Part shown: one piece after another, positions 1 to 48,970 of the stretch
How positions within the stretch are numbered: the first letter of the stretch is position 1
Layout of the letters: each line of letters starts with the position of its first letter
Source of the DNA: Deltaproteobacteria bacterium
GTDB taxonomy: Bacteria; Myxococcota_C; UBA6777
DNA length: 48,970 nt
Direction: 5' to 3'
NCBI GenBank assembly: GCA_002731275.1
Contig: PCBK01000166.1
Coordinates: 1 to 48,970, forward strand
The notes under the pieces: generated by a model
What the model was told of the DNA's origin: nothing
The model's input: only the letters and a program-made list of their open reading frames with translations
Database searches by the model: none
Translations under genes and position numbers: made by a program

Positions 1-1437
1 TTCCATCAGGACTCCATGAGCATCCAAACACCGAATCACCATGTCCTGTGAGGGTTTGAAGTTCCTTCCCCGAATCAGCATCCCAGATTTTCAGCGTCTT
101 GTCCCACGAAGCGGAGAGGATGTGCTTTCCATCTGGACTCCATGAGCATCCATTCACCCGATGACCATGCCCTGTGAGGGTTTGAAGTTCCTTCCCCGAA
201 TCAGCATCCCAGATTTTCAGCGTCTCGTCAAACGAAGCAGAGAGAATGCGCTTTCCATCAGGACTCCATGAGCATCCATTCACCCACCAACTGTGTCCTA
301 TGAGGGTTTGAAGTTCCTTCCCCGAATCAGCATCCCAGATTTTCAGCGTCTCGTCATCAGAAGCGGAGAGGATCCGCTTTCCATCAGGACTCCATGAGCA
401 TCCATTTACCCGATAACCATGCCCTGTGAGGGTTCGAAGTTCTTGGCCTGAGGCTACATCCCAGATTTTCAGCGTATTGTCCCACGAAGCAGAGAGAATG
501 TGTTTTCCATCAGGACTCCATGAGCATCCAAACACCGAATAACCATGTCCTGTGAGGGTTTGAAGTTCCTTCCCCGAATCAGCATCCCAGATTTTCAGCG
601 TATTGTCCCACGCAGCGGAGAGGATGCGCTTTCCATCAGGACTCCACGAGCATCCATTCACCCGATGACCATGCCCTGTGAGGGTTTGAAGTTCCTTCCC
701 CGAATCAGCATCCCAGATTTTCAGCGTCTCGTCCTCAGAAGCAGAGAGGATCCGCTTTCCATCAGGACTCCATGAGCATCCATTCACCCAACTACCATGT
801 CCTGTGAGGGTTCGAAGTTCTTGGCCTGAGGCTACATCCCAGATTTTCAGCGTATTGTCCCACGAAGCGGAGAGGATGCGCTTTCCATCAGGACTCCACA
901 AGCATCCACTCACCCGATTACCATGCCCCGTGAGGGTTTGAAGTTCTTGACCTGAGGCTACATCCCAGATTTTCAGCGTATTGTCACCAGAAGCAGAGAG
1001 AATGTGCTTTCCATCAGGACTCCATGAGCATCCAAACACCGAATCACCATGTCCTGTGAGGGTTTGAAGTTCCTTCCCCGAATCAGCATCCCAGATTTTC
1101 AGCGTATTGTCACCAGAAGCAGAGAGGATGAATCTTCCATCAGGACTCCACGAGCATCCAAGCACCGAATCACCATGTTCTGTGAGGGTTTGAAATTCCT
1201 TCCCCGAATCAGCATCCCAGATTTTCAGCGTCTCGTCATCAGAAGCAGAGAGGATCCGCTTTCCATCAGGACTCCATGAGCATCCATTTACCCAACTACT
1301 ATGCCCTGTGAGGGTTTGAAGTTCCTTCCCCGAATCAGCATCCCAGATTTTCAGCGTCTTGTCCCACGAAGCAGAAAGGACAAATTTTCCATCTGGACTC
1401 CATGAACATCCATTTACCGGACCATTGTGCCCTTGTT
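1..1437 (-). repeat. Twelve tandem 126-bp WD40-coding repeats
   Basis: The same core recurs at an exact 126-bp period, with the unit landmark at 3, 129, 255, 381, 507, 633, 759, 885, 1011, 1137, 1263 and 1389. Each unit codes for one 42-residue WD40 blade (CSWSPDGK..LSAS.D.TLKIWD). DNA identity between units is very high except at a few codons. Two linker subtypes alternate irregularly (DADSGKEL and DVASGQEL), which suggests unit shuffling by recombination. The array continues past the left edge. Confidence 0.95.
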
Positions 1438-4312
1438 TACGGAAGGATGGATGTAGAATCCCAGGTGTAGAGGAGTCCTGCAACCACACATCTCCAAAAG
1501 CCTCCTCTTTTTGTAAGGCGATTGGAGGCTCGCCACGGATCCACTCGGCATCCCACCATGCCTGCGAAGTCGTCTCCACGTCCGTCATATCACAATCACG
1601 CCATACACTTCCCACAAAGCTCGCCCCTTGAACACCAGCCTGAGAGGCACACACATTCTCCAACTCAGCACAGAACATATCGACATCTCGGAGATCCGCA
1701 CCTGTCAAATCCACGTTCTGCCATCGTGTGTGTCTGAGCTTCGCCCCCTTGAAGTTGGCACCTTGAAAGAAGAGACGTTGCTTCTCCGTGCCAAATCGCC
1801 AACGCTCAAGATCTTCACCAGGAAGGTCGATGTGTGTTGGTGATGGGGTTGGCATATCCTTTTCAAGCGCCCGCATCCAATATTTGAATGCCGCGAGACT
1901 CGCCTGTTCCTGATGTTTGGAGATGAGCTGCTCCATTGATGAACGCCACTTTGCCCCAGGATTGACCTCAAAGATCTGACCCAAGAAATCCAGGGTTTCA
2001 AGGCTTGGCATGGGAAGTTTCCAATCCTCCAAGCGTCCATCCACCAACGCCCGGTAAAGGTAGGAAGCCAAGAAATACTCCTGGATGGATGTGTGGGCAA
2101 AGCGAAAGTTGTGTTCGCTGTCATCGGGCCGAAGAACCATTGTCGCGGTGCGAAAATCCTCGGAGACCTTTTCGATATTTTGTGTGTAAAGCTGGGACAT
2201 CACTGTATGTGTACAAATATACAACTCCAGCCACTCATCGACCTTTTCCCAACGCCATTCCTTATCCCCACTGCGCCACATATCAGCGGCGATCGCTTCC
2301 ATGAGCTTCTTTTTGTGCTCCTTCCTGATCTGGTGCTTTCCAATATCCCGCGCCAAACAATCATTGATCATCTGCTCGTAAAGCGTGACCCCTCGAATCT
2401 CTTCCCCATTGGCCTTGCGCCGCTCCAATGCATGGATCTGTTTTCGAATGAGTTCCAAAAACAACGGTCGTTCAGCAAGACCACGGAGGTCGTGAACAGA
2501 GGCCAACAACTCCAAAACGTTATCGACGTGCTCTTCACCCAAGTGGCTCGCGAGATAGTCACGGATCTGTGTCTCTTGAAAGGGAAGAATGATTAGGGCG
2601 TAGTAATCAGCGGGTTTCACACCATCTCGAAGATCGCCTGTAAAGGTCGTGTTCATAGAGCGAATGGTTGGAAAGTAATGTGAACGACATGAGAGCAGAA
2701 TCCGACCAGGACGAGTCGAAGGGGCTCGCTTTTTATGCCTCTGCAAAGAGGTAACAGGGAGCACCTGCCAGAGCATACGAATCAATGCATTTCCTTGCGC
2801 TTCGTTGAGATGCACAAGTTTTTCATCGAGACCATCGAAGATGATCATCGCGCCTTCCTCTCTCACCAATCGAAGCACCTCCTTACCTGTAAACCCGGTC
2901 CCATCATGCTCCCACGTTCGCTCAACAAGTTCATCGAGAAAGGCTTCGAGGGTGGGAAGCGTCGGTTGTTTTGCGTTGTCGTTGATGCTGCTAATGTGCT
3001 TTCGAAGATCGAAGAAGATGGGAAGTGGTGTCTTGTCCTTCTCCTTAGGAGGAGCGCCTTCTCTCATCTTGAGCAGAGAACGGGTGAATTGCTTGAGTGT
3101 CGTCGTCTTTCCAATCCCAAACTCACCAAGCACAACCGCATAGTGTGGAGAAGTCGGATCGTGGGCCCATTTGTTGAGGAGTTCAAGTGCGCTGGGTGCG
3201 TCAGGCTGATGGATGATGTCCTTTGCGGGGTCCAACTCGCCATTTTCAAGTGAAGTGCAAAACCCAGGACTTGGTTGGAGATGTTTGATATCTTCGTGTT
3301 GTAACTTTTGGTGATACCAAAATTCCACCTTGTCTCTTGTGGACAGACAACGCAACGGTTTCTCTTGTGAAGACGCCTTGATGGCGAGATGCTTTTCGAT
3401 GATGTCATAAAGCCCGGATACGAACTCATCGTGTTTACTGGAACCACATTCAGTCCACGCGCGAGGAACGTCCTTGACCTCAATGCTGTAAAATTGCGCT
3501 CTCTCACGGAGTAGATGAGGAAGCTGTGTATGCTCGGTGATCCCCGAAAAAAGCACAGGAATGATCGGCTTACCAGGAAGCTTTGGTTGAGCAGCCTTCA
3601 GCTCATCCGAGCCGAGGAAGTTTAAACTCACCAAAAGCACGCAGATATGTGCATAGGATATATTTCTTTGGATCTCCTCCACACGGTCTTGTCCCGAGAG
3701 GATATCCTTGATACTCCACAGCTCAAACTTGTGATGTCTCGATGCATCGAGATGGGGCTTCAACTTCTTGATGAGCGTGTTGGCCTTTCTTTTATCACTC
3801 TCTGCGTGAAGAACACACATGAAACGGTTTTCACGAGGGTGATCGATATACGTTGTATCTCCAGGAACACCAGGACTCTCTTCAAACTTATCGGCTTCAT
3901 CGGGAAGAGAACTTGTGTCTTCAGTGAACTTCTCAACGCGGCGTTGGAGATCATCGGGGGCCATCACATGTAAAGCACGTGAACCATCCTCACGTTGGGT
4001 GTATTCGATGGAGACGTCGTGATCCTCCCCCGATCTATTGAAGCGAGAGACCATCGTACGAAGCGCCTTGTCCGCGTCTTCCTCGTTTTTATCAGGAAAG
4101 AGACGATGGGCACACTCCCGTCGATCGGCTGTGTAGTCAGGCTGTTGACCATCGGGCGTACTTTTTACCCGCTCCTGTATATTGGAGGCAATGACACCAA
4201 TTCGACGGACGTCCGCACCTGACAGTTCTTCATCGAGCTTCTCGACCCACTCCTGGATTTGCTCGGGGGATTGGGGCTTCTTCTTCACTTTTGACGATTT
4301 CTTCCTGGCCAT
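1..4312 (-). CDS. TIR-like/NACHT/pentapeptide/WD40 STAND NTPase, 3' end beyond window
   Basis: I translated the minus strand from the ATG at 4312; it stays open to the window edge (1437 codons). In order: a charged N-terminus and a possible winged-helix segment (about 35-135); a TIR-like domain (about 160-300; ICVLLVSLNFLGSDEL, IIPVLF); a NACHT NTPase with Walker A GEFGIGKTT (about 396-404) and Walker B IIFDGLDE (about 488); a helical stretch containing FAHTSIQEYFLASYL, typical of NACHT proteins; pentapeptide repeats (about 840-905; GANFKGAKL, VDLTGADLRDVDM); then at least twelve 42-residue WD40 repeats from about 964 to the edge. Known family role: STAND proteins sense a ligand with the C-terminal repeats, oligomerise through the NTPase and activate the N-terminal effector, often causing cell death in phage defence or self/non-self recognition. 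It starts 6 bp after the TIR gene at 4319-5137, with GGAAG/GGGG upstream, so the pair is an operon. The target is unknown, and it is uncertain whether this TIR is catalytic. Confidence 0.9.
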   Translation of the reverse strand, partial: MARKKSSKVKKKPQSPEQIQEWVEKLDEELSGADVRRIGVIASNIQERVKSTPDGQQPDYTADRRECAHRLFPDKNEEDADKALRTMVSRFNRSGEDHDVSIEYTQREDGSRALHVMAPDDLQRRVEKFTEDTSSLPDEADKFEESPGVPGDTTYIDHPRENRFMCVLHAESDKRKANTLIKKLKPHLDASRHHKFELWSIKDILSGQDRVEEIQRNISYAHICVLLVSLNFLGSDELKAAQPKLPGKPIIPVLFSGITEHTQLPHLLRERAQFYSIEVKDVPRAWTECGSSKHDEFVSGLYDIIEKHLAIKASSQEKPLRCLSTRDKVEFWYHQKLQHEDIKHLQPSPGFCTSLENGELDPAKDIIHQPDAPSALELLNKWAHDPTSPHYAVVLGEFGIGKTTTLKQFTRSLLKMREGAPPKEKDKTPLPIFFDLRKHISSINDNAKQPTLPTLEAFLDELVERTWEHDGTGFTGKEVLRLVREEGAMIIFDGLDEKLVHLNEAQGNALIRMLWQVLPVTSLQRHKKRAPSTRPGRILLSCRSHYFPTIRSMNTTFTGDLRDGVKPADYYALIILPFQETQIRDYLASHLGEEHVDNVLELLASVHDLRGLAERPLFLELIRKQIHALERRKANGEEIRGVTLYEQMINDCLARDIGKHQIRKEHKKKLMEAIAADMWRSGDKEWRWEKVDEWLELYICTHTVMSQLYTQNIEKVSEDFRTATMVLRPDDSEHNFRFAHTSIQEYFLASYLYRALVDGRLEDWKLPMPSLETLDFLGQIFEVNPGAKWRSSMEQLISKHQEQASLAAFKYWMRALEKDMPTPSPTHIDLPGEDLERWRFGTEKQRLFFQGANFKGAKLRHTRWQNVDLTGADLRDVDMFCAELENVCASQAGVQGASFVGSVWRDCDMTDVETTSQAWWDAEWIRGEPPIALQKEEAFGDVWLQDSSTPGILHPSFRKQGHNGPVNGCSWSPDGKFVLSASWDKTLKIWDADSGKELQTLTGHSSWVNGCSWSPDGKRILSASDDETLKIWDADSGKEFQTLTEHGDSVLGCSWSPDGRFILSASGDNTLKIWDADSGKELQTLTGHGDSVFGCSWSPDGKHILSASGDNTLKIWDVASGQELQTLTGHGNRVSGCLWSPDGKRILSASWDNTLKIWDVASGQELRTLTGHGSWVNGCSWSPDGKRILSASEDETLKIWDADSGKELQTLTGHGHRVNGCSWSPDGKRILSAAWDNTLKIWDADSGKELQTLTGHGYSVFGCSWSPDGKHILSASWDNTLKIWDVASGQELRTLTGHGYRVNGCSWSPDGKRILSASDDETLKIWDADSGKELQTLIGHSWWVNGCSWSPDGKRILSASFDETLKIWDADSGKELQTLTGHGHRVNGCSWSPDGKHILSASWDKTLKIWDADSGKELQTLTGHGDSVFGCSWSPDG

Positions 4313-4318
4313 CGGTTA

Positions 4319-5137
4319 TTACCCCACTTCCTTTTGAAGGCGTCTCTCAATTTGGTCATACAGTTCACGCACGAACTTCTCTTTATGCTGGGATGATGAG
4401 CATTCGGAGAATGCCTTTCTCTTCCCGTTATCTGTCTCCATCGAGAAGTATTGAAATTGATGAAGCCCCAAAGTCTCGGTGTGGATTGTGTATGGTTTCA
4501 AGAGGACAGGCAGGATGACCTTCTGACCATCCAACAGACGAGGAAGCTCCTCTTCTTTGATATACTTCCGCGTGAAAAATGCCGGTGACAAGAAGAGAAT
4601 CCCCGCTTTGCTGGCATTGATAGCGTCCTTGATCTCTTTATCCCAACCTTCACCAACGAGGATCACGCTGTCTCTCCACGCACCAAAATCAAACGTCTTT
4701 GAACCTTCAAAGTGGACCTCCAGCTCGCCCATCAGATTCTCCACAAGAGTTTTATCCTTGCGAGCGTATGAGATAAAGATCGGCAGATCGATTTTTGTGT
4801 CGGTTTCGGTGTGCATGGCGTTGTTCCTTTGTGGAGTGGGATGGTTTGTGAGCCCTCGAAGGCTCTCTTCAAAGACCTGACTTTCCTTTCTCGATGAAGA
4901 GAGGTGTTTTGCGTTTTGCAGCCAGATCTGGAGGGGATTTGTACCGTCGGTGAGTTCGTCGACGTCGTTCATATGGTTGAGATCGGTGAGCAATTGTGCG
5001 TTGGGGGTGCTTTGTGTTGGTAGTGAGCCCACGAACCCCCTAGAGATACCAGAGAGAAGGGCATTTCGATCCAACCCAGCCTCCAACGCAGTTCGTTGTA
5101 TCTTATGGATGTCTTCTTGTGTCAGACCTTGACCCAT
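4319..5137 (-). CDS. Effector-associated domain + TIR domain protein
   Basis: 272 residues. The start is the ATG at 5137, with AAGGAG six bases upstream. Residues 1-90 (GLDRNALLSGISRGFVGSLP ... DGTNPLQIWLQNA) resemble the small death-like effector-associated adaptor domains (EAD) of bacterial conflict systems; the exact subfamily is not certain. Residues 117-265 are a TIR domain: FISYARKD in the first strand, WDKEI in the helix that follows, and FLSPAFF followed by KEEEL, whose last Glu (E197) sits where catalytic TIR NADases carry theirs. Family knowledge: such TIRs cleave NAD+ or make signalling nucleotides, and EADs recruit effectors to partners by like-with-like contact. There is no signal peptide, so it is probably cytoplasmic. 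It is the first gene of a two-gene operon with the TIR-NACHT-WD40 gene; inference: effector or co-receptor for that sensor. Confidence 0.85.
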   Translation of the reverse strand: MGQGLTQEDIHKIQRTALEAGLDRNALLSGISRGFVGSLPTQSTPNAQLLTDLNHMNDVDELTDGTNPLQIWLQNAKHLSSSRKESQVFEESLRGLTNHPTPQRNNAMHTETDTKIDLPIFISYARKDKTLVENLMGELEVHFEGSKTFDFGAWRDSVILVGEGWDKEIKDAINASKAGILFLSPAFFTRKYIKEEELPRLLDGQKVILPVLLKPYTIHTETLGLHQFQYFSMETDNGKRKAFSECSSSQHKEKFVRELYDQIERRLQKEVG

Positions 5138-5344
5138 CTCATTCTCCTTTAGCATTAAAATGACGACCAAACAAAGATGATGAACACACACTGCATCCGT
5201 CACCGATAAAAGCTCTACGGACAGGATGATAGATCGGTTCATATTTCTTTGCAATTGTTTTTGCATTTTTTTGCAACGAACCAACAAAACAAAACTCAAA
5301 ACACTGTTTTCAAATACACATTCAAGCAAAACCAAAACAAATCC

Positions 5345-5599
5345 CCCACACAACACAAGAGATTGTGTGGGTAGGACTCTCTCTGTGCTTTGTCGTGTGG
5401 CGCTCGAAGAGCGCAAAACAGACGATGCGTGAGCATCGTGGGGTCTGGGGGCAACGACCCCAGGCGGGTGTGGGCAGTCAGCCCACGATGCCAAGCGGAG
5501 CGCGGCAGCAACAGGGGCAAGTTGTAGGGTTGAGTGGCAACTCAACCCAAAAGCGGCAGCAACAGGGGCAAGTTGTAGGGTTGAGTGGCCACTCAACCC
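5345..5599. repeat. Array of seven perfect stem-loops
   Basis: Consecutive perfect inverted repeats with different stems: 5345-5371 (CCCACACAA, 9 bp), 5400-5414 (GCGCTC, loop GAA), 5422-5439 (ACGATGC, loop GTGA), 5439-5462 (TGGGGTC), 5470-5486 (GTGGGC, loop AGTCA), 5527-5548 (GGGTTGAGT, loop GGCA) and 5578-5599 (GGGTTGAGTGG, no loop). Only the last two share a sequence. None is followed by a T-tract, so they are unlikely to be simple terminators. Confidence 0.8.
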
Positions 5600-7364: not shown

Positions 7365-7420
7365 CCGCGAGTTATCCATTCAAATGATCTCAGTTGAACA
7401 GAAGAGAAAGGTGAGCCTTG

Positions 7421-10400
7421 ATGAGCCATAGAGAGTCCCCTTCTAGCCGCGCGTATGACGTAAATGGAATCCAACGAAAAGGCAAAATCCGTTGGCGCTT
7501 TCAGCTACCAGGCGAATTGGCCGGGCAGCCCCTCTACACAGGACAGTCCGTCTTCGCCACGACCATCGACGGCGCACTACACGCGATCGATCTCAAGAAG
7601 GGAAAAGCCAACTGGTCTTCAACACTCCCACAAGGCCACTACCACCCCGCAACACACGATAAAAACCACCTCTACCTCGGCAACCGCGACGGCGTCCTGT
7701 ACGCCATCAAGCAAAGCGACGGCAAAGAGAGTTGGCAACACACACTCTCCCACTTCATCACCACTGCCGCCCAATCTTACGGCGAATGGACACTTGTCGG
7801 TGACGCAAGCGGCCAATGGCACGCACTCGACAGCCAAAAAGGTGACGTCGAATGGTCCACATCCCTCCGCATCGTCGCAGACTACGCGCTCGTCGTCGGT
7901 CAACAACTCTACCTCGCCGATCGTGCAGGACAACTCTGCGCATTCGACCTCGAACAGATGAGCCTCCTGTGGCAAACCCGCCCCGGTAGCTCCCTCCTCG
8001 ACACACCAACCGCCACACAAGACCATCTCTACCTCGGCGATGTGATGGGACAATTGTTCTGTATCGACCGCCACAATGGACAGATCGTGTGGCGTACACA
8101 AGGTGAACAAGCCTTTCAAACCTCCCCCGCAGTCGGCCAAGCAACACTCTACGCGTGTAGCCTGAATGGTCGCATCTACGCGATCGATCGCGCCACAGGC
8201 AGCCATCTATGGCAATACCCCCTCAAACAACGTACCTTCTCGCCACTGACACTCAGCAAAGATGTCCTCTACGCGCACACACAAGACGGCAAACTCAGCG
8301 CTCTTGACGCCCAAGAAGGCAAAAAGCTGTGGCAGCTCGACACCGCAAAGACTGGTATCTCACGAAGCGCCCCCACACTCATCGATGAAGAGCTGTTCAT
8401 CTCAACATCTGAACACACCCTCCTCTCCATCGCCTCCAAAGAAAAAATCAGCTCGTACACAGCGCGCCCCAAACCGACACAAACGACGAGCACAAGCACC
8501 TCACACAGCTATCTCCCAGTGTCAGGACAGTACAACGCAGAGACGACCGGTGGACAGGCTCAATTTCGCGGCAGCAACGAGAGAAGAGGCGAGTACTACG
8601 GCGTCACAGAGCCTCGCAAGAAGCTGGGGGTCCGCTGGAAGGTCAAAACCACCGACTGGATCTACTCGACACCACTGATCGTCGACGATGTTGTCTATGC
8701 AGCAACCACAAACGGACACCTTCACGCGTTCAATTTGGAGACAGGGAAAGAGCTCTGGAAGTACAAAACCAAAGAACTCTTCACAAGCTCAGGAACAGTC
8801 GTTGGCGACGTCCTCTGTATCGGGAATTACGGGAAGAAGATGCTCGCCTTCGATCGACACACAGGTAGGGTGTTGTGGGAGAAAAAGGTCGGCAGCTACG
8901 TATACGCTTCCCCACTTATTTGTGATGGCGTCGTGTATTTCGGCGATTACGACAACAAATTCCACGCTATCTCGCTCAAAGATGGCAGCGATATATGGTC
9001 GTTCAAATCCAAAGGAAACTTCTTTAGCTCCCCAGCCCTCGCTGGTGATACAGTCTATTGTGGATGTGATGATAACCACATCTACGCCTGGGACCGCAAA
9101 AATGGAACGCTCAAGTGGTCCTTCAAGGCTGAAAAAGGCTTTTACGCGTCAGTCGCCCACTATCAAGGTGTCATTTACGGTAACAACCGCGATGGTAAAC
9201 TTTACGCACTCAACGCCGAAGACGGCAGCAAGTTGTGGTCCTTCTCCACAGGTAACTCCATCGACTCTTCCCCTGCTGTGACTGATGAACATGTTTACCT
9301 CGGTGTGCTCGACAACATGTGCCACGCTGTCGACCGCAAAACAGGCGAAAAAGTCTGGAGCTACAAAACAGCTGGTCGTATCGTCGCGAGCCCTGCCGTC
9401 GCAGGTGGCGTCGTGATGTTCGCCAGTGAAGATAACAAGCTCCACGTCCTCGATAGAATGTCAGGTGACAAGCTCTGGGATCATAGCTGTGGTGCCCCAT
9501 TCTTCGCCTCACCTGTCCCCCATAAAGGTGCCGTACTGTTCGGCAACAGAGACAATTACATCTACGTCCTCAACGTCGAAGGACCAGAGGTCCCCGCGCT
9601 GAAGCAGAAAAAGGCAGGCACCGCGACCGCCATCAACCAAGCAATATTCCGTGGTGGCTATGAACGACGAGGTGTCTATGTCGACGTCACAGAGCCCCGT
9701 GAGAAGCTGGATGTTCGTTGGAAGTTTAAGACAGATGACACGATCTATTCGACCCCCATCGCGCTCGACGACACCCTCTACTTCGCGAGCACCAATGGTG
9801 AATTACAAGCTTACGATCTGAACACCGAGAAGCGTTTGTGGCACTTCAAGACCAACGAATTGTTTACGAGCTCAGGCGCAATTGAAGGTGATATCCTGTG
9901 CATTGGGAACTACAACAAAAAAGTCTACGCCTTTGATCGACACACAGGCAAAGAGGTCTGGACCCAATCGCTCGGTGGCCACATCTACGCCTCCCCCATG
10001 ATCTACGATGGCGCTGTCTACGTCGGGTGTTATGACAAGAAATTCTACGCCCTCTCCCTCAAGGATGGTTCCGTGTTGTGGAGCGGCAAGGGCTCCGCGT
10101 CCTTCTTCTCATCACCGGCAGTCGCCGGCGATACAGTCTTTAGTGGCTGTGAAGATAAACACGTCTATGCGTGGAACAGACATGACGGGACACTACAGTG
10201 GAGCTTCAAAACGGGCTCTGGCTTGTACGCCTCTGTCGCTCACTACGACGGCATCATCTACTGTGGAGACAAAGGCGGATATATCTACGCCCTCGACGCC
10301 ACAACAGGCCAATGTTTGTGGAAAGAGCAGATCTCAAAGAGCGCTATCGAGTCCTCACCTGCCATCACCGAGGAACACATTTACGTCGGTGGTGTCGACA

Positions 10401-11770
10401 AAAATGTGTACGCACTCGATCGACAAAATGGAAAACAGGTCTGGTCACACAAGACCAAAGGCAAAGTCATCGCGAGCGCCGCTGTCGCAGGGAATGTTGT
10501 GTTGTTCGCGAGCGAAGACAAACACGTCTACGCCTTCGATCGCCTTGGCGGGGCTCTCTTGTGGAAGCACGCCTTTGGCAGTGAGTTCTTTGCCTCTCCA
10601 GTCCCCTACAAAGATCTCGTTGTCGCCGGCAACAGAGACAAGTATGTGTATGGTCTTGCGGTCAATGGTCCTCACGTCGAAGCGCCCCAAAGTGAGACAA
10701 CACAGGATACAGCGGACACAGTGCTCTTCCGTGGTGGTCTCACACGAGACGGCATCTTCACGGATGCCACAGAGCCCCGCGAGAAGTTGAACGTTCGCTG
10801 GCAATTCAAAGGGAAGGATGTCTTCTACGCCTCCCCACTTGTCGCAGATGACGTTGTATACGCGCTCTCAAACAAAAGTGGTCGAATCTACGCGATCGAC
10901 TTCAACACAGGTAAAGAGATTTGGAGTTTTGAGACAGACAGCAGCAGCAGAGCCTCTGCTGCTGTGAGCGAGGATGTCGTCTGTTTCGGCAATTATAGTC
11001 ACTACTTATACGTATTAGACCGACACAACGGCGACCTCAAACGGAAGCACCAGTTCCCCGGCTACTTTGAGGCCTCACCTCTTATCCACGAAGGTGTCAT
11101 CTACATCGGATGTTATGACAAACACTTTTACGCGATGGCACTCGAAGATGGGGCTCCCCTCTGGGAATACAAGGCAAAGGGCGGCTTTTATGCCTCGGCT
11201 GCGTTGTTTGAAGACACAGTGTACTGTGGCTCCCAAGACAACCACATGTACGCCTGGGATCGCAAAACAGGGAAACTCAAGTGGAAGTACAAAGGCAAAT
11301 CGAATCTGTACACCACGACATACCACAACGGCGCCATCTACACAGGCGACTCAAGTGGCAACATGTACGCCATCGACGCAGATAACGGCAAACTCAGATG
11401 GACCCGAAAACACAGCTGGTTTGTCGAATCCCCACAGGCCGTCACAGACGAACATATCTACGTCGGTGCGCCTGATGGTGAGTGCTTCGCGCTGGAGACC
11501 CTCACAGGTAAAAAAGCATGGGTTTACAAAGCCGGCAAACAAGCTGTTGGTGGACCAGCAGTCGTCGGAGATACCGTCCTGTTTACGAGCTCGGACAAAC
11601 ACCTCTATGCCTTCGACAGGATGTCCGGTCGTCTGCTATGGAAACACCAATGCAGCGGTGACATTGTAGGTAGCCCCATCCCTTACAAACAATCCGTTGT
11701 CGTAGCGGACTTCAATCACCACGTCTACGCCATCGACGTCAAAGGCCCGAAAAAAAAAGCCCTGAGCTAG
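7421..11770 (+). CDS. Giant PQQ-type beta-propeller protein (propellers 1-4)
   Basis: 1449 residues from the ATG at 7421, seven bases after AAAGGTG. Four beta-propellers made of PQQ-like blades (YA.D..TG...W patterns: IYAIDRATGSHLW, VYALDRQNGKQVW). Propeller 1 is about 20-340; propellers 2-4 each begin with a matching module (RG..ERRG...VTEPR.KL..RW at about 379, 742 and 1102), so they arose by internal duplication with a period near 360 residues. There is no signal peptide or membrane helix, unlike PQQ dehydrogenases and BamB, and the dehydrogenase active-site elements are not apparent, so a cytoplasmic scaffold or ligand-binding role is more likely than an enzyme. The frame ends with GPKKKALS and a TAG immediately after a run of nine A. 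A fifth matching propeller continues in the -1 frame (next entry), so this CDS is probably the 5' part of a longer gene. Confidence 0.88.
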   Translation: MSHRESPSSRAYDVNGIQRKGKIRWRFQLPGELAGQPLYTGQSVFATTIDGALHAIDLKKGKANWSSTLPQGHYHPATHDKNHLYLGNRDGVLYAIKQSDGKESWQHTLSHFITTAAQSYGEWTLVGDASGQWHALDSQKGDVEWSTSLRIVADYALVVGQQLYLADRAGQLCAFDLEQMSLLWQTRPGSSLLDTPTATQDHLYLGDVMGQLFCIDRHNGQIVWRTQGEQAFQTSPAVGQATLYACSLNGRIYAIDRATGSHLWQYPLKQRTFSPLTLSKDVLYAHTQDGKLSALDAQEGKKLWQLDTAKTGISRSAPTLIDEELFISTSEHTLLSIASKEKISSYTARPKPTQTTSTSTSHSYLPVSGQYNAETTGGQAQFRGSNERRGEYYGVTEPRKKLGVRWKVKTTDWIYSTPLIVDDVVYAATTNGHLHAFNLETGKELWKYKTKELFTSSGTVVGDVLCIGNYGKKMLAFDRHTGRVLWEKKVGSYVYASPLICDGVVYFGDYDNKFHAISLKDGSDIWSFKSKGNFFSSPALAGDTVYCGCDDNHIYAWDRKNGTLKWSFKAEKGFYASVAHYQGVIYGNNRDGKLYALNAEDGSKLWSFSTGNSIDSSPAVTDEHVYLGVLDNMCHAVDRKTGEKVWSYKTAGRIVASPAVAGGVVMFASEDNKLHVLDRMSGDKLWDHSCGAPFFASPVPHKGAVLFGNRDNYIYVLNVEGPEVPALKQKKAGTATAINQAIFRGGYERRGVYVDVTEPREKLDVRWKFKTDDTIYSTPIALDDTLYFASTNGELQAYDLNTEKRLWHFKTNELFTSSGAIEGDILCIGNYNKKVYAFDRHTGKEVWTQSLGGHIYASPMIYDGAVYVGCYDKKFYALSLKDGSVLWSGKGSASFFSSPAVAGDTVFSGCEDKHVYAWNRHDGTLQWSFKTGSGLYASVAHYDGIIYCGDKGGYIYALDATTGQCLWKEQISKSAIESSPAITEEHIYVGGVDKNVYALDRQNGKQVWSHKTKGKVIASAAVAGNVVLFASEDKHVYAFDRLGGALLWKHAFGSEFFASPVPYKDLVVAGNRDKYVYGLAVNGPHVEAPQSETTQDTADTVLFRGGLTRDGIFTDATEPREKLNVRWQFKGKDVFYASPLVADDVVYALSNKSGRIYAIDFNTGKEIWSFETDSSSRASAAVSEDVVCFGNYSHYLYVLDRHNGDLKRKHQFPGYFEASPLIHEGVIYIGCYDKHFYAMALEDGAPLWEYKAKGGFYASAALFEDTVYCGSQDNHMYAWDRKTGKLKWKYKGKSNLYTTTYHNGAIYTGDSSGNMYAIDADNGKLRWTRKHSWFVESPQAVTDEHIYVGAPDGECFALETLTGKKAWVYKAGKQAVGGPAVVGDTVLFTSSDKHLYAFDRMSGRLLWKHQCSGDIVGSPIPYKQSVVVADFNHHVYAIDVKGPKKKALS
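11750..11759 (+). other. A9-G slippery run at the end of PQQ propeller 4
   Basis: CCG AAA AAA AAA GCC in the frame of the upstream gene. The run contains A AAA AAA G, a sequence on which a -1 ribosomal shift is well known, and runs of nine A also promote RNA-polymerase slippage. A -1 shift here bypasses the TAG at 11768-11770 and enters an open frame coding for a fifth propeller. It could also be a sequencing or assembly length error, or a real disabling mutation. Confidence 0.6.
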
Positions 11771-12885
11771 AAGAATCATCCCCAACACAAACGCCCCCCC
11801 AAGAATCATCCCCCAATACCACCGAAGAAACCTCTGCATTTGTCCAACAGCCCTCATCAACCATCGACACACGCGCCCTGCAGCGTGGTATCTATAAGGG
11901 GACCACTCCACAAGAGAAACAATCGATTCGTTGGACCTTGGTGGTCAACGATACCATTGATGTATCACCTCTTGCAGCCGGTGCAATGGCTTATGTACAT
12001 AGCAAAAGTGGTCCCTTGCACGGTGTCGATATCGAGCTGAGCACGATGGAGTGGACGTACGACGTAGAGGGTGGCTTTGCCAACGCAGGTGCTCTGTCAG
12101 AAGACACTCTCTACATAGGCGATTACAACAAGCATATCTACGCCATCGACCGCCACAAAGGTAAACTCAAATGGAAGGTCGAGTTAGGTGGTAGTGTCGT
12201 CTCCACACCTGTCATCGACGGTGACATGCTGTTTTGTGGTGGCAAAGACCGATACTTCTATGCGCTCTCCACACAAGATGGTAGCGTCATCTGGAAACAA
12301 AAAGCCAATGGGATGTTCTTCGCGACACCAGCGGTCTCAGAGAAGTTTGTCTTCTGCAAGGCCAGCGATCGCAACCTCTACGCCTGGGTACGGAAAGACG
12401 GCACGTTACAGTGGAAGACATCACTGGAGAGCCGCGAACATGACAACGTCGTCTATCACGATGGTGTCATCTATATTGCGGACAACACGATGTTATACGC
12501 ACTCGATGCGGTCGACCACAACCGCAAATGGGTGAGACGTTTTAGCGCCAACATCTGCTCGGCACCTGCGGTGGATGACAACATGATTTATCTCGGATGT
12601 AGCAATGACTTCTGTTACGGGATCAACCGCAGCACCGGAGAGATAGAGTGGACCTGTATCCTCAGCGCCAAGGTCAAAGCGCGTCCCTCTGTGATCGGCG
12701 ACAAGGTCTTGCTGTCCTGTCTCGACAAAAATCTCTATGTAGTCGATAAAAAGAGCGGTGAGATGGGATGGTTTCACACATTCGATGCGTCCATGTCGAC
12801 CGCTGCCATCCCCCACAAAGATGTCATCCTGGTCACAAACAACAACCGACTTCAGGTGTTGCAGATTAGCGGCCCCAAAAAGTGA
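11755..12885 (+). CDS. PQQ-type propeller 5, in the -1 frame relative to the preceding gene
   Basis: The open frame starts inside the A run of the preceding gene and ends at the TGA at 12883-12885 (about 376 residues). A Ser/Pro/Thr/Gln linker (PELEESSPTQTPPQESS) is followed by a complete propeller that begins with the same module as the others (RGIYKGTTPQEKQSIRW at about 11884) and ends with ISGPKK, matching DVKGPKKK at the end of propeller 4. No ATG, GTG or TTG occurs in this frame before TTG at 11938 and GTG at 11941. Both lie inside the propeller's first blade and lack a ribosome site, so independent translation would give a broken fold. The spacing from propeller 4 (384 residues) fits the regular array. 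Interpretation: the fifth propeller of one gene, reached by -1 frameshift or transcript slippage, or separated by an indel. The alternative is a separate gene from TTG 11938. Confidence 0.75.
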   Translation, partial: KSPELEESSPTQTPPQESSPNTTEETSAFVQQPSSTIDTRALQRGIYKGTTPQEKQSIRWTLVVNDTIDVSPLAAGAMAYVHSKSGPLHGVDIELSTMEWTYDVEGGFANAGALSEDTLYIGDYNKHIYAIDRHKGKLKWKVELGGSVVSTPVIDGDMLFCGGKDRYFYALSTQDGSVIWKQKANGMFFATPAVSEKFVFCKASDRNLYAWVRKDGTLQWKTSLESREHDNVVYHDGVIYIADNTMLYALDAVDHNRKWVRRFSANICSAPAVDDNMIYLGCSNDFCYGINRSTGEIEWTCILSAKVKARPSVIGDKVLLSCLDKNLYVVDKKSGEMGWFHTFDASMSTAAIPHKDVILVTNNNRLQVLQISGPKK

Positions 12886-32667: not shown

Positions 32668-32972
32668 TCCGAGCTGCTCGGAGAGATACATCTGGCTCCT
32701 TTTGTCAATCTACTCGATTGCACGAGTCAGCGACTTCACGGAAATATTAAAATAAAAACCCTCAGGGTCCACACGAATCTCCACATTGTCTCTTTCCCAA
32801 ACACGATGTGTTGTGCGACGCTGCAGGGTTTTTCTATATCTCCCCCCGAACTTTCCCATGCCTCCACCCGTACTCCCCACAACACAAGACACACCCATCA
32901 CAAAGAGGAAGTGTTTCCCGCCTGTCAAATGACTCGCCACGCTCCCCACCAGAGATGATAAAGGATCTGATC
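32668..32972. other. Intergenic region before the RNA-repair gene
   Basis: 305 bp. An open frame runs through it in phase with the RNA-repair gene but has no ribosome site or credible start. A minus-strand frame (32710-32949) is also open but unsupported. I see no terminator or clear promoter; AT-rich at 32735-32760. Confidence 0.4.
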
Positions 32973-35900
32973 ATGAGCAAGAAAACGCACACCAAGCTTC
33001 GCACCAGTCGAGAGGTTATCTACCAAATTATCTGGGATGAACGTCTCCACACACATGAATACTCCATCGAATATGAAGAGCGCTTCTCTGGCATGAGAGA
33101 GATCCCAGTCGTCGACTTTGAACCTGACGGCGAGATCCCCTGGCACCGGATCTGGCGGATCAAACAGGGGGGCACGATCGTGTGGGACCGCAAAGCACGT
33201 ATCGATAGGATAGGACAAAGCCAGCACAACACCCCCACACACTCCACAAAGTCCGTCACCAAGCCCCCAAAACGGCGGGTCTCAACCAAGACCAAACAAC
33301 ACACACCAGCACACCAAGCGCCCTTCCTACCACAGCCCACCTATCAATTTGACCCCATACACAAACAGTGGCAGCCCCTGTCTTCCACGGAGAGCCGCAC
33401 CAGCATCCCGGCGCCCTCCTCTCTGCGTATTGTCAGCTTCAACGTCTTGATGGACCCAGAAGCCTGTTACCACACCCCCACGCGGCAGCTCCACCTCTTC
33501 AACACTCTCAAAGAGGCACAAGCCGACATCATCGCGCTACAAGAAGTCACCCCGACATTCTTGCAAACGCTGCTCACACAAGAGTGGGTACGTGGACAAT
33601 ATTATTGTTCCGATGAACCGGAAGGAACACAGCTCACACCGTATGGACAGATCATCCTGAGCCGCTACCCCGTCGCGTTTGAGCGACAAGAATCCAACTC
33701 TCCCAAACGCATTCTTTGTGGTGAATGGCACACCAAAGAAGGAGCGATCGAGATTGCGGTCGTCCACCTCACGAGCAATCGCGCGAAGCAACCGGCCAAA
33801 AAGAGATACCTTCAACTCGATCATCTGCTCGAAGAACTCGAACGACACAGCGACGTCAAGACACGGATCATTCTGGGTGATTTCAACATCATGAGTGAGC
33901 AAAGTGACCCCGACAGCATCGAACGATTCATGCTCGAAGGCTACGAAGATGTCTGGCACACCCTGCATCCAAAAGACAGCGGTGAGACCTTCGATCCGAC
34001 GCGCAATGCGCTCGCAAAACAAACCAGTACAACAGGTCAAAAAGCACGATACGATCGTATCTACGTCAACAGCGAAGCCTATCATCCCCACACCTGCACA
34101 CGCCTCGGCATGGCTCCAATTCCACACAAAGAAAAGCTCTATTTATCCGATCACTATGGGCTCCTCTGTCAAATTGAGGCAAGCACAGAGACGAGCACGT
34201 CCTTCTCGGAGATCCCACCCACCCTCAAAACGGCGGTCGCGCTTATTCCACCAGAGTCCGTCTGGGAACCCATCCAGGCGCTGCGCGCGCAATACGACAG
34301 GCGCTTCACGCGCTGGATGCCTCATATCACTGTGTTCTTCCAATTTGTCCCAGAAGAACACTTTGACGACATCGCGCTCGCACTCCAACAACTCCTCGAA
34401 GAGACCGGTCCTTTCGAGATAATGTTCAAAGAATTTCGCAGCTTTCAGCACGCCAAACAACACACGATCTGGCTCCACCCAGAGATCCATCCACCCGATC
34501 GTCTCAAGGATTTTCACGCCGCGTTGCTCAAGATCTTCCCCCAATGTAAAGAGCGGATCGCAGGTCGTGAAGAGTGGCATCCACACCTCTCGATCGGACA
34601 GGTCAGCGCGAGTAAAGCCCCTGCTGTTCTGCGCGCACTTCAACAATCATGGCAACCTATCCACTGTACGATCGACACACTCAGCCTTATCCGACGGGAA
34701 AAAGACGCGCCTGCCTCCGTCCATACTCAACTTCCCCTTCAACCAACACCTTCGGGACACTCTTCGAAACATCAGGTGGTCAAGCTCCCACAAACATTAC
34801 AAGAGGTCCTTCAACAACACACCCTCTACACCACAGAAGACACGAGCAAACAGACACTGCTCGCCCAAACACATGCCTGTGTCGCGTCCTGGAATGAGCA
34901 ACACACAAGCACCCCTCTACAGGCTTACTCTATCGGTTCAACCGGCTTACAAGTCGCGCTACCACAGAGTGATGTTGATGTGTTGTTGTGTTGTTCGAAG
35001 CTCACAAAGCCCAAAGAGGTCTTTCAGGCGATAGGATCGGCATTGCGAGGGCATACACAAGAACTGGTCGAGCGCAGTGTTGTCGACGCCCAGATCCCCG
35101 TGTACAAAGCCTACTTCGAAGGAACAACACTCGACATTCAACTCGCTCATCTCCCACAGCAATGGCGTGAAACAGCCCCTGAGAGCTGGCGTACACTGGA
35201 TATCACAGCGCTGACACCTTCGCAGCGTTTGATGGTACAGAGCCTCATGGATCAACACACCCTACGAACCTATCTCGACGAACAAAACGCACGTCCGCTA
35301 CTTTACCTCCTCAAGGCATGGGCGCGCCGACATCAGCTCGACAAACAGGCGTGGGGAGGGATCGGCGGGATCGCCTGGGCGATCCTCGCCGTCGCCGCCC
35401 ACAGAGCATGTCAGCTCTCTCCAGAGATGCCACTCCTTCAGCAAGTAAAGAAGACGTTCGGCTGGCTCGCAGGTGACGCCCTCAAAGCAGGCATCTCACT
35501 CGAAGGTATCCCAGAAGAGACTTCATCAGCGATCGCGATCTGGACCCCCACAGCCCCCTACGTCAACAGCACACGACAGGTCACACACAACACCGCCAAA
35601 CAACTCAAAAGAGCCTTCACATCAGCTCACCAGATCGGAGAAAAGGAGAGCTCAGAGCAAAACTACTGGACCGCTCTGTTCACAGACCTCCCAACATTAC
35701 AAGGTGACATCACTGTCACGCTCACGCTCGACACAGCCTCAGCACTCGCACAACACAACACCATCGGTGCGCTCGAAAAACGCGCGCTCTCCTGGCTCAA
35801 TACGCTCGAAACAACTGCACACATCGAATGCCAATCCCTGCACTTCACCACTCACCCAATGTGGTCCGTACAGATGACGTTTATCAACACACATCCAAGC

Positions 35901-36008
35901 GAATCCATCGATACAAACGCGATCCAGGCTGCACTCGAAACACTTCAACAGGATCTCGACACTTCACTGGGCCAACAACCCCATACCACCTTCCACTACA
36001 CGTTTTAA
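32973..36008 (+). CDS. Four-domain predicted RNA-repair protein (MJ1316-EEP-2H-PAP fusion)
   Basis: 1011 residues from the ATG at 32973 (AAAGGA seven bases upstream). Four domains: residues 8-78 are an MJ1316/DUF504 RNA-end-recognition domain (IIWDERLHTHEYSIEYEERF, IPWHRIWRIKQGG, VWDR). 150-402 are an endonuclease/exonuclease/phosphatase (EEP) domain with N157, E191 (LQEV), D303/N305 (GDFN) and D393/H394 (SDHYG). 420-580 are a 2H (LigT-like) phosphoesterase with H451-x-T453 and H538-x-S540. 600-1011 are a nucleotidyltransferase with GS(655-656), D667-x-D669 and D721, plus AWGGIGGIAWAILAVAA, which matches the central region of eukaryotic-type poly(A) polymerases. All catalytic residues appear intact. 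Known chemistry: 2H domains open 2',3'-cyclic phosphates, EEP enzymes remove 3' nucleotides or phosphates, and nucleotidyltransferases re-add nucleotides. Inference: repairs RNA cut by ribotoxins. Similar domain combinations have been predicted in RNA-repair systems. Cytoplasmic. It lies between PG-binding paralogs 1 and 2. Confidence 0.88.
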   Translation: MSKKTHTKLRTSREVIYQIIWDERLHTHEYSIEYEERFSGMREIPVVDFEPDGEIPWHRIWRIKQGGTIVWDRKARIDRIGQSQHNTPTHSTKSVTKPPKRRVSTKTKQHTPAHQAPFLPQPTYQFDPIHKQWQPLSSTESRTSIPAPSSLRIVSFNVLMDPEACYHTPTRQLHLFNTLKEAQADIIALQEVTPTFLQTLLTQEWVRGQYYCSDEPEGTQLTPYGQIILSRYPVAFERQESNSPKRILCGEWHTKEGAIEIAVVHLTSNRAKQPAKKRYLQLDHLLEELERHSDVKTRIILGDFNIMSEQSDPDSIERFMLEGYEDVWHTLHPKDSGETFDPTRNALAKQTSTTGQKARYDRIYVNSEAYHPHTCTRLGMAPIPHKEKLYLSDHYGLLCQIEASTETSTSFSEIPPTLKTAVALIPPESVWEPIQALRAQYDRRFTRWMPHITVFFQFVPEEHFDDIALALQQLLEETGPFEIMFKEFRSFQHAKQHTIWLHPEIHPPDRLKDFHAALLKIFPQCKERIAGREEWHPHLSIGQVSASKAPAVLRALQQSWQPIHCTIDTLSLIRREKDAPASVHTQLPLQPTPSGHSSKHQVVKLPQTLQEVLQQHTLYTTEDTSKQTLLAQTHACVASWNEQHTSTPLQAYSIGSTGLQVALPQSDVDVLLCCSKLTKPKEVFQAIGSALRGHTQELVERSVVDAQIPVYKAYFEGTTLDIQLAHLPQQWRETAPESWRTLDITALTPSQRLMVQSLMDQHTLRTYLDEQNARPLLYLLKAWARRHQLDKQAWGGIGGIAWAILAVAAHRACQLSPEMPLLQQVKKTFGWLAGDALKAGISLEGIPEETSSAIAIWTPTAPYVNSTRQVTHNTAKQLKRAFTSAHQIGEKESSEQNYWTALFTDLPTLQGDITVTLTLDTASALAQHNTIGALEKRALSWLNTLETTAHIECQSLHFTTHPMWSVQMTFINTHPSESIDTNAIQAALETLQQDLDTSLGQQPHTTFHYTF

Positions 36009-41323: not shown

Positions 41324-43000
41324 TCACCAACGCCACCCTCCCCCCAGTGAGAAGGACGCCACACCACGCGCCACCCAATCCCCCCCAAGATCAAACAGCC
41401 TCACACCACCGTCGATATCCAGCCGCACAAACCACGTCGAAGTCAGGTGAAGCTGCCATTGGAGCATCCCACCCGCTTCATACATCATCGACAAGATCTG
41501 TTCATCCTTGTTGGGAGGTTGTTCGAGGGACTGTAAGAGAGGCGCAAAACGCAGCCGCGGCCCCAAAGACAACTCCCCCCAGCGGCCATGCCAAAGACGC
41601 CATCCCAACGAGACATCCACAGGTAAAATGTGCGCAGTGTACCCAAACGTCGACGACAACTGTGACGTCCCGTACTGATACGCGAGACGTATCCCCACAT
41701 GCATCGCGTCCCATCCTATCGACTCAAGAGGAAAACGGAAGGTCAACCCCACCCCCTGTGTCAACATACCTTGCGATAATTGCCCGACACCAAGCCTGTA
41801 ATGGACACCAAAAGAGAAGCCCTCTTGCTGCCCCTCGAAAGGCACCCATAGACCGGCCTCAGACGAAGACGTCGTCCCTCTGATGGTGCCCTTCTTCCAG
41901 TATGCAACACGACGCCCGATCATACGTAAACGCAGCTTTTGACCGCGTCTTAACGAGATCTTGGAGGAGAAGATCCCCCCCTTTCGTCTCCATTGTAAAA
42001 CATAACGCCCCGGTGACAAGGCGATCACACCAGCGCGGCCTTTACTCTTATTCAGCTCCGCGAGGAGTACACTCTTCGCTCGATCCCACACAAAGAAGTC
42101 CCCTGCGACACCTGCGCGCAACAACAACCATGAGCGTGGGCGTGAGAGTGACGTCAGGACCAACCGACCATACCCGGACAAGCTCTTGCGAAAGTGCGCT
42201 CGCTGTGGCCCATGGACCGACAAGATCGTCCGTTCAAGGGAGCGGAGATAGGCGTAGCGATAGATCTCTTCGAGTGTGACGTAGCCATCTCCATTGCGGT
42301 CTGCTGCGCCACGTAAGCCAGAGACGAGATAGTGGGTGAAGACACCGCCACGTAGCTCCGGGTCTTCGTGGGCGCTCTCCTTGGCACCTGTCGCTGAGAT
42401 CAGGACTTCTCCCTTGATCGTCGGTGAGATGTGGAGCATCGGGATCGGGAAGGTCTTGTTGCGATGACGCAAACCCTTCAGGGTCGTCAAGCGACCACTC
42501 TCACATGCGTCGATGATCGCCAACCGGACATCTGCGCCAGAAGCTCGCAAAAAAGAACGCAGTTCACGAAAAGAGAACGTCGAACGTCCGAGAAGTAGCT
42601 GGCCTTTTCGCGCATGTCCAGAGTAATACACGAGGAGCATGATGTTGTGTTGTGTGCCCCTCTTCTTGCGGATACGCTGGATACGTGTCTTGATCTTCTT
42701 CATGATCCGGCGCAACGCGATATCCGAGACACCTCTGGCCAGCCATATGTTGCGCTTTCTGGCACCTGACGCCTCAAGCAGCACATGCTTCATCTTACGA
42801 GCGTCAGATTCGGCAAATTGGAGCGCCTTGGTCCGCCGCCCCCCATCGTTGTTCCCGATCAACAAGGCGAGTGAAGTGGTCCGCACAGACGCAGCCGCCC
42901 ATACATCGCCTGCCCACAACAAGACGAACAGACACACAGACAACACAAAGAGGTGATTGTATCGACAACACCATGGTTTTCGAAGAGCGCCTTTTCTCAT
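41324..43000 (-). CDS. Secreted caspase-family protease with predicted beta-barrel tail
   Basis: 558 residues. The ATG at 43000 has AAGG seven bases upstream. Signal peptide about 1-36 (cleavage near VWAAAS). Caspase-like (peptidase C14) domain about 41-260: LALLIGNND first strand, catalytic H129 in YYSGHA and C166 in IIDACESGR. An EF-hand-like loop D234RNGDGYVTLEE245 follows, as in calcium-dependent metacaspases. A beta domain lies in the middle (PGRYVLQW). The last 180 residues alternate in the manner of an outer-membrane beta-barrel (GLTFRFPLESIGWD, VDVSLGWRLW, ELSLGPRLRF, ending SFSLGGGWRW with a C-terminal aromatic). So the protease would sit in the periplasm or on the surface, tethered to the outer membrane (inference). 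Last gene of the sigma/anti-sigma run, 31 bp after the anti-sigma gene. Confidence 0.82.
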   Translation of the reverse strand: MRKGALRKPWCCRYNHLFVLSVCLFVLLWAGDVWAAASVRTTSLALLIGNNDGGRRTKALQFAESDARKMKHVLLEASGARKRNIWLARGVSDIALRRIMKKIKTRIQRIRKKRGTQHNIMLLVYYSGHARKGQLLLGRSTFSFRELRSFLRASGADVRLAIIDACESGRLTTLKGLRHRNKTFPIPMLHISPTIKGEVLISATGAKESAHEDPELRGGVFTHYLVSGLRGAADRNGDGYVTLEEIYRYAYLRSLERTILSVHGPQRAHFRKSLSGYGRLVLTSLSRPRSWLLLRAGVAGDFFVWDRAKSVLLAELNKSKGRAGVIALSPGRYVLQWRRKGGIFSSKISLRRGQKLRLRMIGRRVAYWKKGTIRGTTSSSEAGLWVPFEGQQEGFSFGVHYRLGVGQLSQGMLTQGVGLTFRFPLESIGWDAMHVGIRLAYQYGTSQLSSTFGYTAHILPVDVSLGWRLWHGRWGELSLGPRLRFAPLLQSLEQPPNKDEQILSMMYEAGGMLQWQLHLTSTWFVRLDIDGGVRLFDLGGDWVARGVASFSLGGGWRW

Positions 43001-43031: not shown

Positions 43032-43853
43032 CTACTCACGCTTCAGCACAAAATGAAGCAGGTACTCACAAAGTCGCTCGCCTTTTTTGTCTTTGGCCTC
43101 AGGTGAAACATGTGAATCCCTTGTGATCGCCTCCCCAGCACGCGGTAATACTTTGAGGAGCGTCTTCAGCGATCGAGCTCGCTTCGAGAAGCAGGCCCAC
43201 ACCATCTCATCTCCCTCAGCTTTGCCCTCGACCTCAAGGCTCCCAGAGAACCAATGCTCCTTCTCGGCCACCACACGAAGGCTGCGCGCATCACCATTCG
43301 AGGGGTACAAAGGCGTCCACTGGCCTTTTGGGTCGCGGTGTACGATATACAGGTAGCCAGCATACGCCCAACGGTATCCGATGCGCAAAAAGTCGCCCTC
43401 TCGAAAGCTCTCCTTCGAGCGCACATGAAGGATATGTTTGCCTCTCTTGCGAACGATCAATAAGGCCGGGTGAGGTGTGTCCCGGTCACTCTTGATCGCG
43501 AATCTCTTCACAGGCTTGCCTCCCACTGAAAAAAACTGTTTGTCCAACCCAAAAGAGACAAACAACAGGAGCCCACAGGCTGCCGCAGCAGCTCCCCACA
43601 CAGCAGGACGTTGTAGCCACTCCCACCAGCTCTGCCAGGGAGAGGCGGCCGGCCACTGTGGCAAGACGACCTCCGAGGCACGTGCGCTTGCCATTTCGAG
43701 CGCACGAAGATCCTCCTGACAGCGAGGACAAGACGCGATATGTCGCTTTGATTGTTCGTGTTCATCAGGAGACTCGCCACCAAAAAAGTGAAGGTCTAAC
43801 CGATACTCGGACAAACAGGCTTCTACTTGCATATTCTCTCTCTCATCGATCAT
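43032..43853 (-). CDS. zf-HC2 anti-sigma-like membrane protein with DUF4384-like domain
   Basis: 273 residues from the ATG at 43853 (AAAGG eight bases upstream; an ATG at 43832 after GAGAGAGA is nearly as good). The N-terminal zinc-binding anti-sigma domain has H38-x3-C42-x2-C45 (HIASCPRC). One membrane helix (about 85-102, WGAAAAACGLLLFVSFG) follows. The periplasmic domain (about 115-240) looks like DUF4384: FREGDFLRIGYRW, GYLYIVHRDPKG, PLYPSNGDARSL. Family knowledge: zf-HC2 proteins hold an ECF sigma factor inactive until an envelope signal. It probably binds the sigma factor at 44093-44629. It is separated from that gene by a 239-bp gap containing an inverted-repeat element, and followed by the caspase gene. 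Confidence 0.82.
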   Translation of the reverse strand: MIDERENMQVEACLSEYRLDLHFFGGESPDEHEQSKRHIASCPRCQEDLRALEMASARASEVVLPQWPAASPWQSWWEWLQRPAVWGAAAAACGLLLFVSFGLDKQFFSVGGKPVKRFAIKSDRDTPHPALLIVRKRGKHILHVRSKESFREGDFLRIGYRWAYAGYLYIVHRDPKGQWTPLYPSNGDARSLRVVAEKEHWFSGSLEVEGKAEGDEMVWACFSKRARSLKTLLKVLPRAGEAITRDSHVSPEAKDKKGERLCEYLLHFVLKRE

Positions 43854-48731: not shown

Positions 48732-48970
48732 ATTTGCTCCGACATATGCGGGGGATACTTGAATGTTGATCCGGCGGATGTTGCACTTGTGTCTCCGCAA
48801 ACTCCCCTGATTCCACTCTACAATCCCCTTCTTGCAGGCGGATATAGCAAGCCATATCCTTAAATACTCTTCTACTCGCGAGCTTTCAGTGGGTTTTTTG
48901 CGTCTTCACTTGCAATCATCCGCCTCAACAAACTCTCCACCCTGAGCCTTCGGCTCTTCCCTCCTCTCAA
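48732..48970. other. Right-edge non-coding stretch
   Basis: 239 bp after the MscS gene. It contains a hairpin GGATATAGC-AA-GCCATATCC (about 48840-48859) with one mismatch and no T-tract, and an 8-bp palindrome CTCGCGAG. I see no gene start before the edge. Confidence 0.4.

Follow-up and report, generated by a model that had tools for sequence, protein, structure and literature searches.

A long bacterial gene is broken at a run of nine A residues (A9) between its fourth and fifth beta-propeller domains. The gene lies in the window, i.e., the whole stretch of 48,970 nucleotides that was analysed, which is one entire contig of a 10.75 Mb draft genome (200 contigs, estimated contamination 5.5%). 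The gene is new and the phenomenon is known: this is an ordinary, well-precedented frame break in an A run, situated at a domain boundary. A natural and recent change of the run length, with leaky slippage past the break, is favoured at roughly even confidence over an artefact and over a selected isoform system, both of which are less probable.

Anatomy of the split gene

The first open reading frame (ORF1) starts at an ATG preceded by a good Shine-Dalgarno sequence (AAAGGTGAG), which also precedes an alternative TTG start at 7418. Its product ends in KGPKKKALS. The A9 run stands in the context CCG-A9-GCC. Downstream, the −1 frame (ORF2) is open from stop to stop between 11674 and 12885, with 375 open codons. 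Translated from inside A9, it runs from ...KKSPELEESSP... to ...QISGPKK before the stop; the open stretch reads KKSPELEESSPTQTPPQESSPNTTEETS...QISGPKK. The features of the gene are as follows, in window positions.

7421–11770, + strand: ORF1, ATG to TAG, 1449 amino acids, with propellers P1 (N-terminal), P2, P3 and P4
7457–8455, + strand: P1, the most divergent propeller (propeller alignment)
8555–9592, + strand: P2 propeller
9635–10678, + strand: P3 propeller, predicted eight-bladed PQQ/BamB-like fold (alignment, AlphaFold)
10715–11755, + strand: P4 propeller, complete before the A run (propeller alignment)
11750–11758, + strand: A9 run with the in-frame heptamer A_AAA_AAA followed by G
11768–11770, + strand: TAG stop of the upstream frame
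11758–11865, + strand: linker in the −1 frame, SPELEESSPTQTPPQESSPNTTEETSAFVQQPSSTI (translation, coding potential)
11866–12885, + strand: P5, complete fifth propeller in the −1 frame, including the stop (translation, Pfam, alignment, model)

A first, sequence-only reading of this DNA had proposed that A9 joins two frames of a five-propeller PQQ-type protein, and this is borne out by the switch in coding potential, by a hexamer HMM and by alignment. ORF1 has a coding potential of 0.195 nats per codon (−0.25 and −0.37 in the other two frames) and ORF2 one of 0.164 (−0.33 and −0.37); the HMM places the switch at 11756/11761. With P4 complete on one side of the A run and P5 on the other, it is the linker that is interrupted. 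Run lengths of 3n + 1, i.e., 10 or 7 As, would put ORF1 and P5 in one frame. The 8 or 11 As given earlier as single-frame lengths are wrong because the frame is −1. A C7 run at 11794–11800, 36 bases 3′ of A9, leaves the frame unchanged, and a compensating change there was rejected since the −1 frame is already coding from the A run onward.

The products of both frames match the Pfam families PQQ_2 (E = 1.6e-183 for ORF1, 1.9e-41 for ORF2) and Beta-prop_ACSF4. P2 and P3 are 58% identical; P4 shares 43–44% identity with P2 and P3, P5 shares 33–36% with P2–P4, and P1 about 21% with each of the others. The AlphaFold model of P3 (pLDDT 91.8) is matched in Foldseek by BamB and by the designed eight-bladed propeller Cake8, with TM about 0.85. 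The PQQ_2 match, together with the modelled eight-bladed fold, shows a likeness to the PQQ-like propellers of the BamB type in both sequence and predicted fold. BamB is a single-propeller lipoprotein, whereas four or five propellers are in tandem in the chain described here; a literature search found no tandem PQQ-like propeller proteins. The earlier description of the −1 frame as a linker plus a complete fifth propeller also holds. P5 aligns end to end with P2–P4 with codon-sized gaps only, and its model is that of a complete propeller (pLDDT 91.9, pTM 0.89). The start module was said to be the same in P5; it is partly alike, but about five residues are missing, the remainder has diverged, and P1 has no such module at all.

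By eye, the protein shows no signal peptide, so that it is probably cytoplasmic, and it may act as a multi-propeller scaffold. The upstream neighbour encodes a copper type II monooxygenase-like protein and the downstream neighbours a fatty-acid hydroxylase-like protein and an FG-GAP protein (Pfam).

Several other features are found in the window. Judged by eye, a large protein encoded at 2–4312 (minus strand) combines a TIR-like part and a NACHT-like NTPase with pentapeptide-like repeats and numerous near-identical WD40 blades; it resembles TIR/NACHT/WD40 conflict proteins whose propellers have been freshly amplified. The contig breaks within its blade array. Adjoining it at 4319–5596 (minus strand) is a protein with an EAD5 (effector-associated) domain and a TIR domain (Pfam); as neighbours, the two are a possible conflict or defence pair. 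An RNA-repair-like fusion at 32808–36008 unites MJ1316, endonuclease/exonuclease/phosphatase, 2′-5′ RNA ligase-like and poly(A)-polymerase-like domains within a single polypeptide. A caspase-domain (Peptidase_C14) protein is encoded at 41324–43000 (minus strand), and the adjacent open reading frame, 43032–43853, has a weak match to DUF4384. Positions 48739–48970 belong to a dispersed, locally tandem repeat of about 230–260 bp that occurs in several dozen places at 84–93% identity, many of them at contig ends. It forms arrays of 2.5–3.3 copies with a 260-bp period (L177 in C59 and L179 in C184) and a looser array of four copies with a 254-bp period (L181 in C13); a search of Rfam gave no match.

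Frame breaks in the genome and starts of the second frame

About 1.9 Mb of the same genome was sampled, i.e., the window and 100 further stretches (1.84 Mb). The sample is centred on all 51 places where nine or more As are followed by G, and it also includes stretches picked regardless of A runs. Reading frames were traced with a hexamer model, and 1,166 coding segments were tested. The A9 junction ranks first and is the only clear frame switch without a start; the second-ranked candidate (L132) has an ordinary downstream ATG. Other flagged switches that were looked at elsewhere in the sample are mostly ordinary overlapping or adjacent genes. Two switches flagged at a C7 run (L136) and a C8 run (L120) were rejected as gene borders; the C8 run, which apart from A9 is the only run of at least 8 that was flagged, is at a gene start. 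A weak second candidate, near 3540 in L058, switches frame with no start close by, shows 5.6 nats before the first start and is ambiguous.

Long runs inside genes otherwise keep the frame. Thirty-nine of the 51 places are non-coding, seven are at gene edges and four are in frame within genes (three as A and one as T in the mRNA); the A9 described here alone changes the frame. All sense A8 runs within coding stretches (41/41) are in frame, as are about 17 further homopolymers of at least 8. With the four runs of A9 or longer, about 60 in-frame runs of this length inside genes compare with one A9 break. In L100, an A11 run (1046–1056) is found in frame within a 546-amino-acid open reading frame that is transposase-like by eye, and represents a candidate slippage site.

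These counts bear on whether the break is an artefact of sequencing, assembly or population consensus, whereby the gene is continuous in most cells and the consensus lacks one base of the run. Errors of this kind fall in homopolymers, the assembly is a draft of 200 contigs with an estimated contamination of 5.5%, and the controls are few: only four or five sense runs of A9 or longer are found inside genes in the sample, so that a miscall at this single A9 is statistically possible. On the other hand, some 60 runs of 8 or more are in frame, and the tested segments contain no further clear frame break. The contig ends on the left in near-identical WD40 blades and on the right in the 260-bp dispersed repeat. 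Breaks in such short repeats are typical of short-read assemblies, and A9 is rarely miscalled in short reads. Widespread indel errors from sequencing or assembly are therefore unlikely. An artefact confined to this site is also judged unlikely, and A9 would then be real in the cells.

The second frame might instead be a gene of its own, P5 being translated from an independent start or by a restart coupled to the upstream stop. ORF1 and the −1 frame do overlap, and the upstream stop is only 165 bases before the first start in that frame, TTG 11938. This start is followed by GTG 11941 and by the first ATG at 11986, and none of the three has a Shine-Dalgarno sequence at the proper distance. All are inside the closing strand or the first blade: strand E21–26 of the P5 model corresponds to 11926–11943, and initiation at TTG 11938 would cut this predicted strand. 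Moreover, the coding bias runs for 177 bases ahead of any start, the highest value among the 1,166 segments, and no promoter-like or terminator-like sites were found near the junction. The second frame thus needs the first. Independent initiation of P5, which the sequence-only reading had named as the finding that would refute it, was rejected, as there is no start before 11938 and none with a suitable Shine-Dalgarno sequence; the statement that no usable start precedes the first blade was correct. Two separate genes are very improbable.

Age of the break and slippage at A9

P5 has neither a stop codon nor an internal frameshift, retains a coding bias of 0.16 nats per codon and differs from P2–P4 by gaps of codon size only. 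Signs of a pseudogene or of decay are thus absent from the downstream part, which is compatible with a very recent break. Under simulated neutral decay, the chance that no stop arises is 68%, 15% and 3% at 1%, 5% and 10% divergence, respectively. The break is therefore recent, or it is read through. No orthologue with the junction was found in the other four genomes of the phylum, in 40 relatives or in broader genome contigs, and a homologue search returned generic propellers only (about 20–45% identity). With no orthologue to date the event, the term recent refers to the absence of decay. As a rule of thumb, frame breaks seen as singletons are most often indel mutations or errors (PMC3711429).

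Long A runs are avoided in the genes of this genome, as judged against synonymous shuffles in which every protein and its codon usage are preserved. In the non-targeted stretches, one run of A9 or longer is observed in genes where 36.4 ± 4.9 are expected, together with 24 A8 runs (60.5 expected) and 105 A7 runs (153 expected). Over the whole sample, runs of A9 or longer number four, with 58.6 ± 7.4 expected. This avoidance is consistent with A9 being slippery or hypermutable in this genome. Avoidance of A runs has been ascribed to transcript slippage and/or replication slippage, with a threshold of nine nucleotides in many bacteria (PMC1088944).

Transcriptional slippage is associated with a run of about nine or more As at a frame junction, and A9 is such a run. 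A reporter cassette with 9 As shows 40% frameshifting (PMC3711429), and the A9 of Thermus thermophilus dnaX shows about 50% by transcript slippage (PMC1088944). By analogy with these published cases, slippage of RNA polymerase at A9 is plausible, and a real A9 would very probably yield some five-propeller protein. The site also contains an in-phase X XXY YYZ heptamer of the dnaX type. The sequence-only reading had pointed to A AAA AAA G as a known −1 slippery site; the heptamer A_AAA_AAA (11752–11758) and the following G (11759) are in phase with the upstream frame, and ribosomal slippage on A_AAA_AAA_G is possible. However, no 3′ hairpin was found in a fold without pseudoknots (11759–11840, minimum free energy −1.0 kcal/mol, z +0.88). 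The sole upstream candidate for a Shine-Dalgarno-like stimulator, seen by eye, is a weak AAAGG at 11741–11745, six bases from the heptamer rather than the usual 10–14 or so. Searches of Rfam and for RNA structure at the junction found nothing. Classic, stimulated ribosomal frameshifting of the dnaX type is thus not supported. The earlier reading had not chosen among frameshift, slippage and fresh mutation; transcript slippage is plausible by analogy.

In the favoured explanation, a single ancestral gene would have encoded five PQQ-like (BamB-like), eight-bladed propellers in tandem, as one cytoplasmic protein. The A run in the linker that follows P4, which codes for lysines, would recently have changed its length by a natural mutation and so have placed P5 in the −1 frame, and the main product would now be the four-propeller protein ending in KGPKKKALS. 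ORF1 and the −1 frame are very probably on one shared transcript. Because of this and of the nine As at the junction, some of the mRNAs may gain or lose As through slippage of RNA polymerase, and −1 slippage of ribosomes on A_AAA_AAA may also occur. In these ways the five-propeller protein may still be produced as a minor form.

Alternatively, A9 may be kept by selection, with transcript slippage, alone or combined with −1 ribosomal slippage, setting a fixed ratio of four- to five-propeller protein, like tau and gamma of dnaX. The break is exactly between two complete domains, P5 is undecayed, the heptamer is in phase, and the genome otherwise purges A9 from its genes, which makes a retained long A run unusual. 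Yet an A run is to be expected in a lysine-rich linker in any case, no 3′ hairpin was found, and no well-placed Shine-Dalgarno stimulator is seen by eye. The junction is also a singleton with no conserved homologue found, and singletons are mostly indels or errors (PMC3711429). Programmed isoforms are therefore considered improbable. The sole hint of selection is that a genome that purges A9 keeps one exactly between two complete domains.

Relation to known frame breaks

The closest counterparts are A-run genes. Thermus thermophilus dnaX (tau/gamma) likewise has nine sense-strand As inside the coding sequence and potentially long and short products (PMC1088944). There, the 0 frame encodes the long product and slippage shortens it, whereas here the roles are reversed, the 0 frame giving the shorter protein, to which slippage would add a whole domain; the present candidate is known from the sequence of one genome. 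Disrupted open reading frames at 9A runs, including poly-A genes of Buchnera and Blochmannia, share an A-run indel that breaks the frame, which mRNA length heterogeneity would restore (Baranov 2005; PMC1088944, PMC5009743). Transcripts were measured in those AT-rich, reduced genomes, whereas the gene described here belongs to a large genome, with 52% GC in the window.

Disrupted beta-propeller genes are a documented class (PMC9218822, 2022), and they share with this gene the out-of-frame blades encoded directly 3′ of the stop. The reported genes break inside arrays of near-identical blades, whereas the present break is in the linker between complete, long-diverged propellers. The −1 programmed ribosomal frameshift of E. 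coli dnaX also uses an in-phase A heptamer, A_AAA_AAG as compared with A_AAA_AAA here; for this gene, no downstream hairpin was found and no Shine-Dalgarno stimulator is seen by eye at the usual spacing.

It is conceivable, though doubtful, that A9 represents a selected slippage switch that sets the ratio of four- to five-propeller scaffolds in a little-known phylum, the slipped product being the longer one by an entire folded domain. Avoidance of A9 in genes across the genome (1 observed, 36 expected) provides a clean background, against which the few remaining intragenic A9 runs stand out as candidates. Should A9 be real, gene callers will report as two unrelated proteins what may be two isoforms from one transcript, or forms between which a population may switch.
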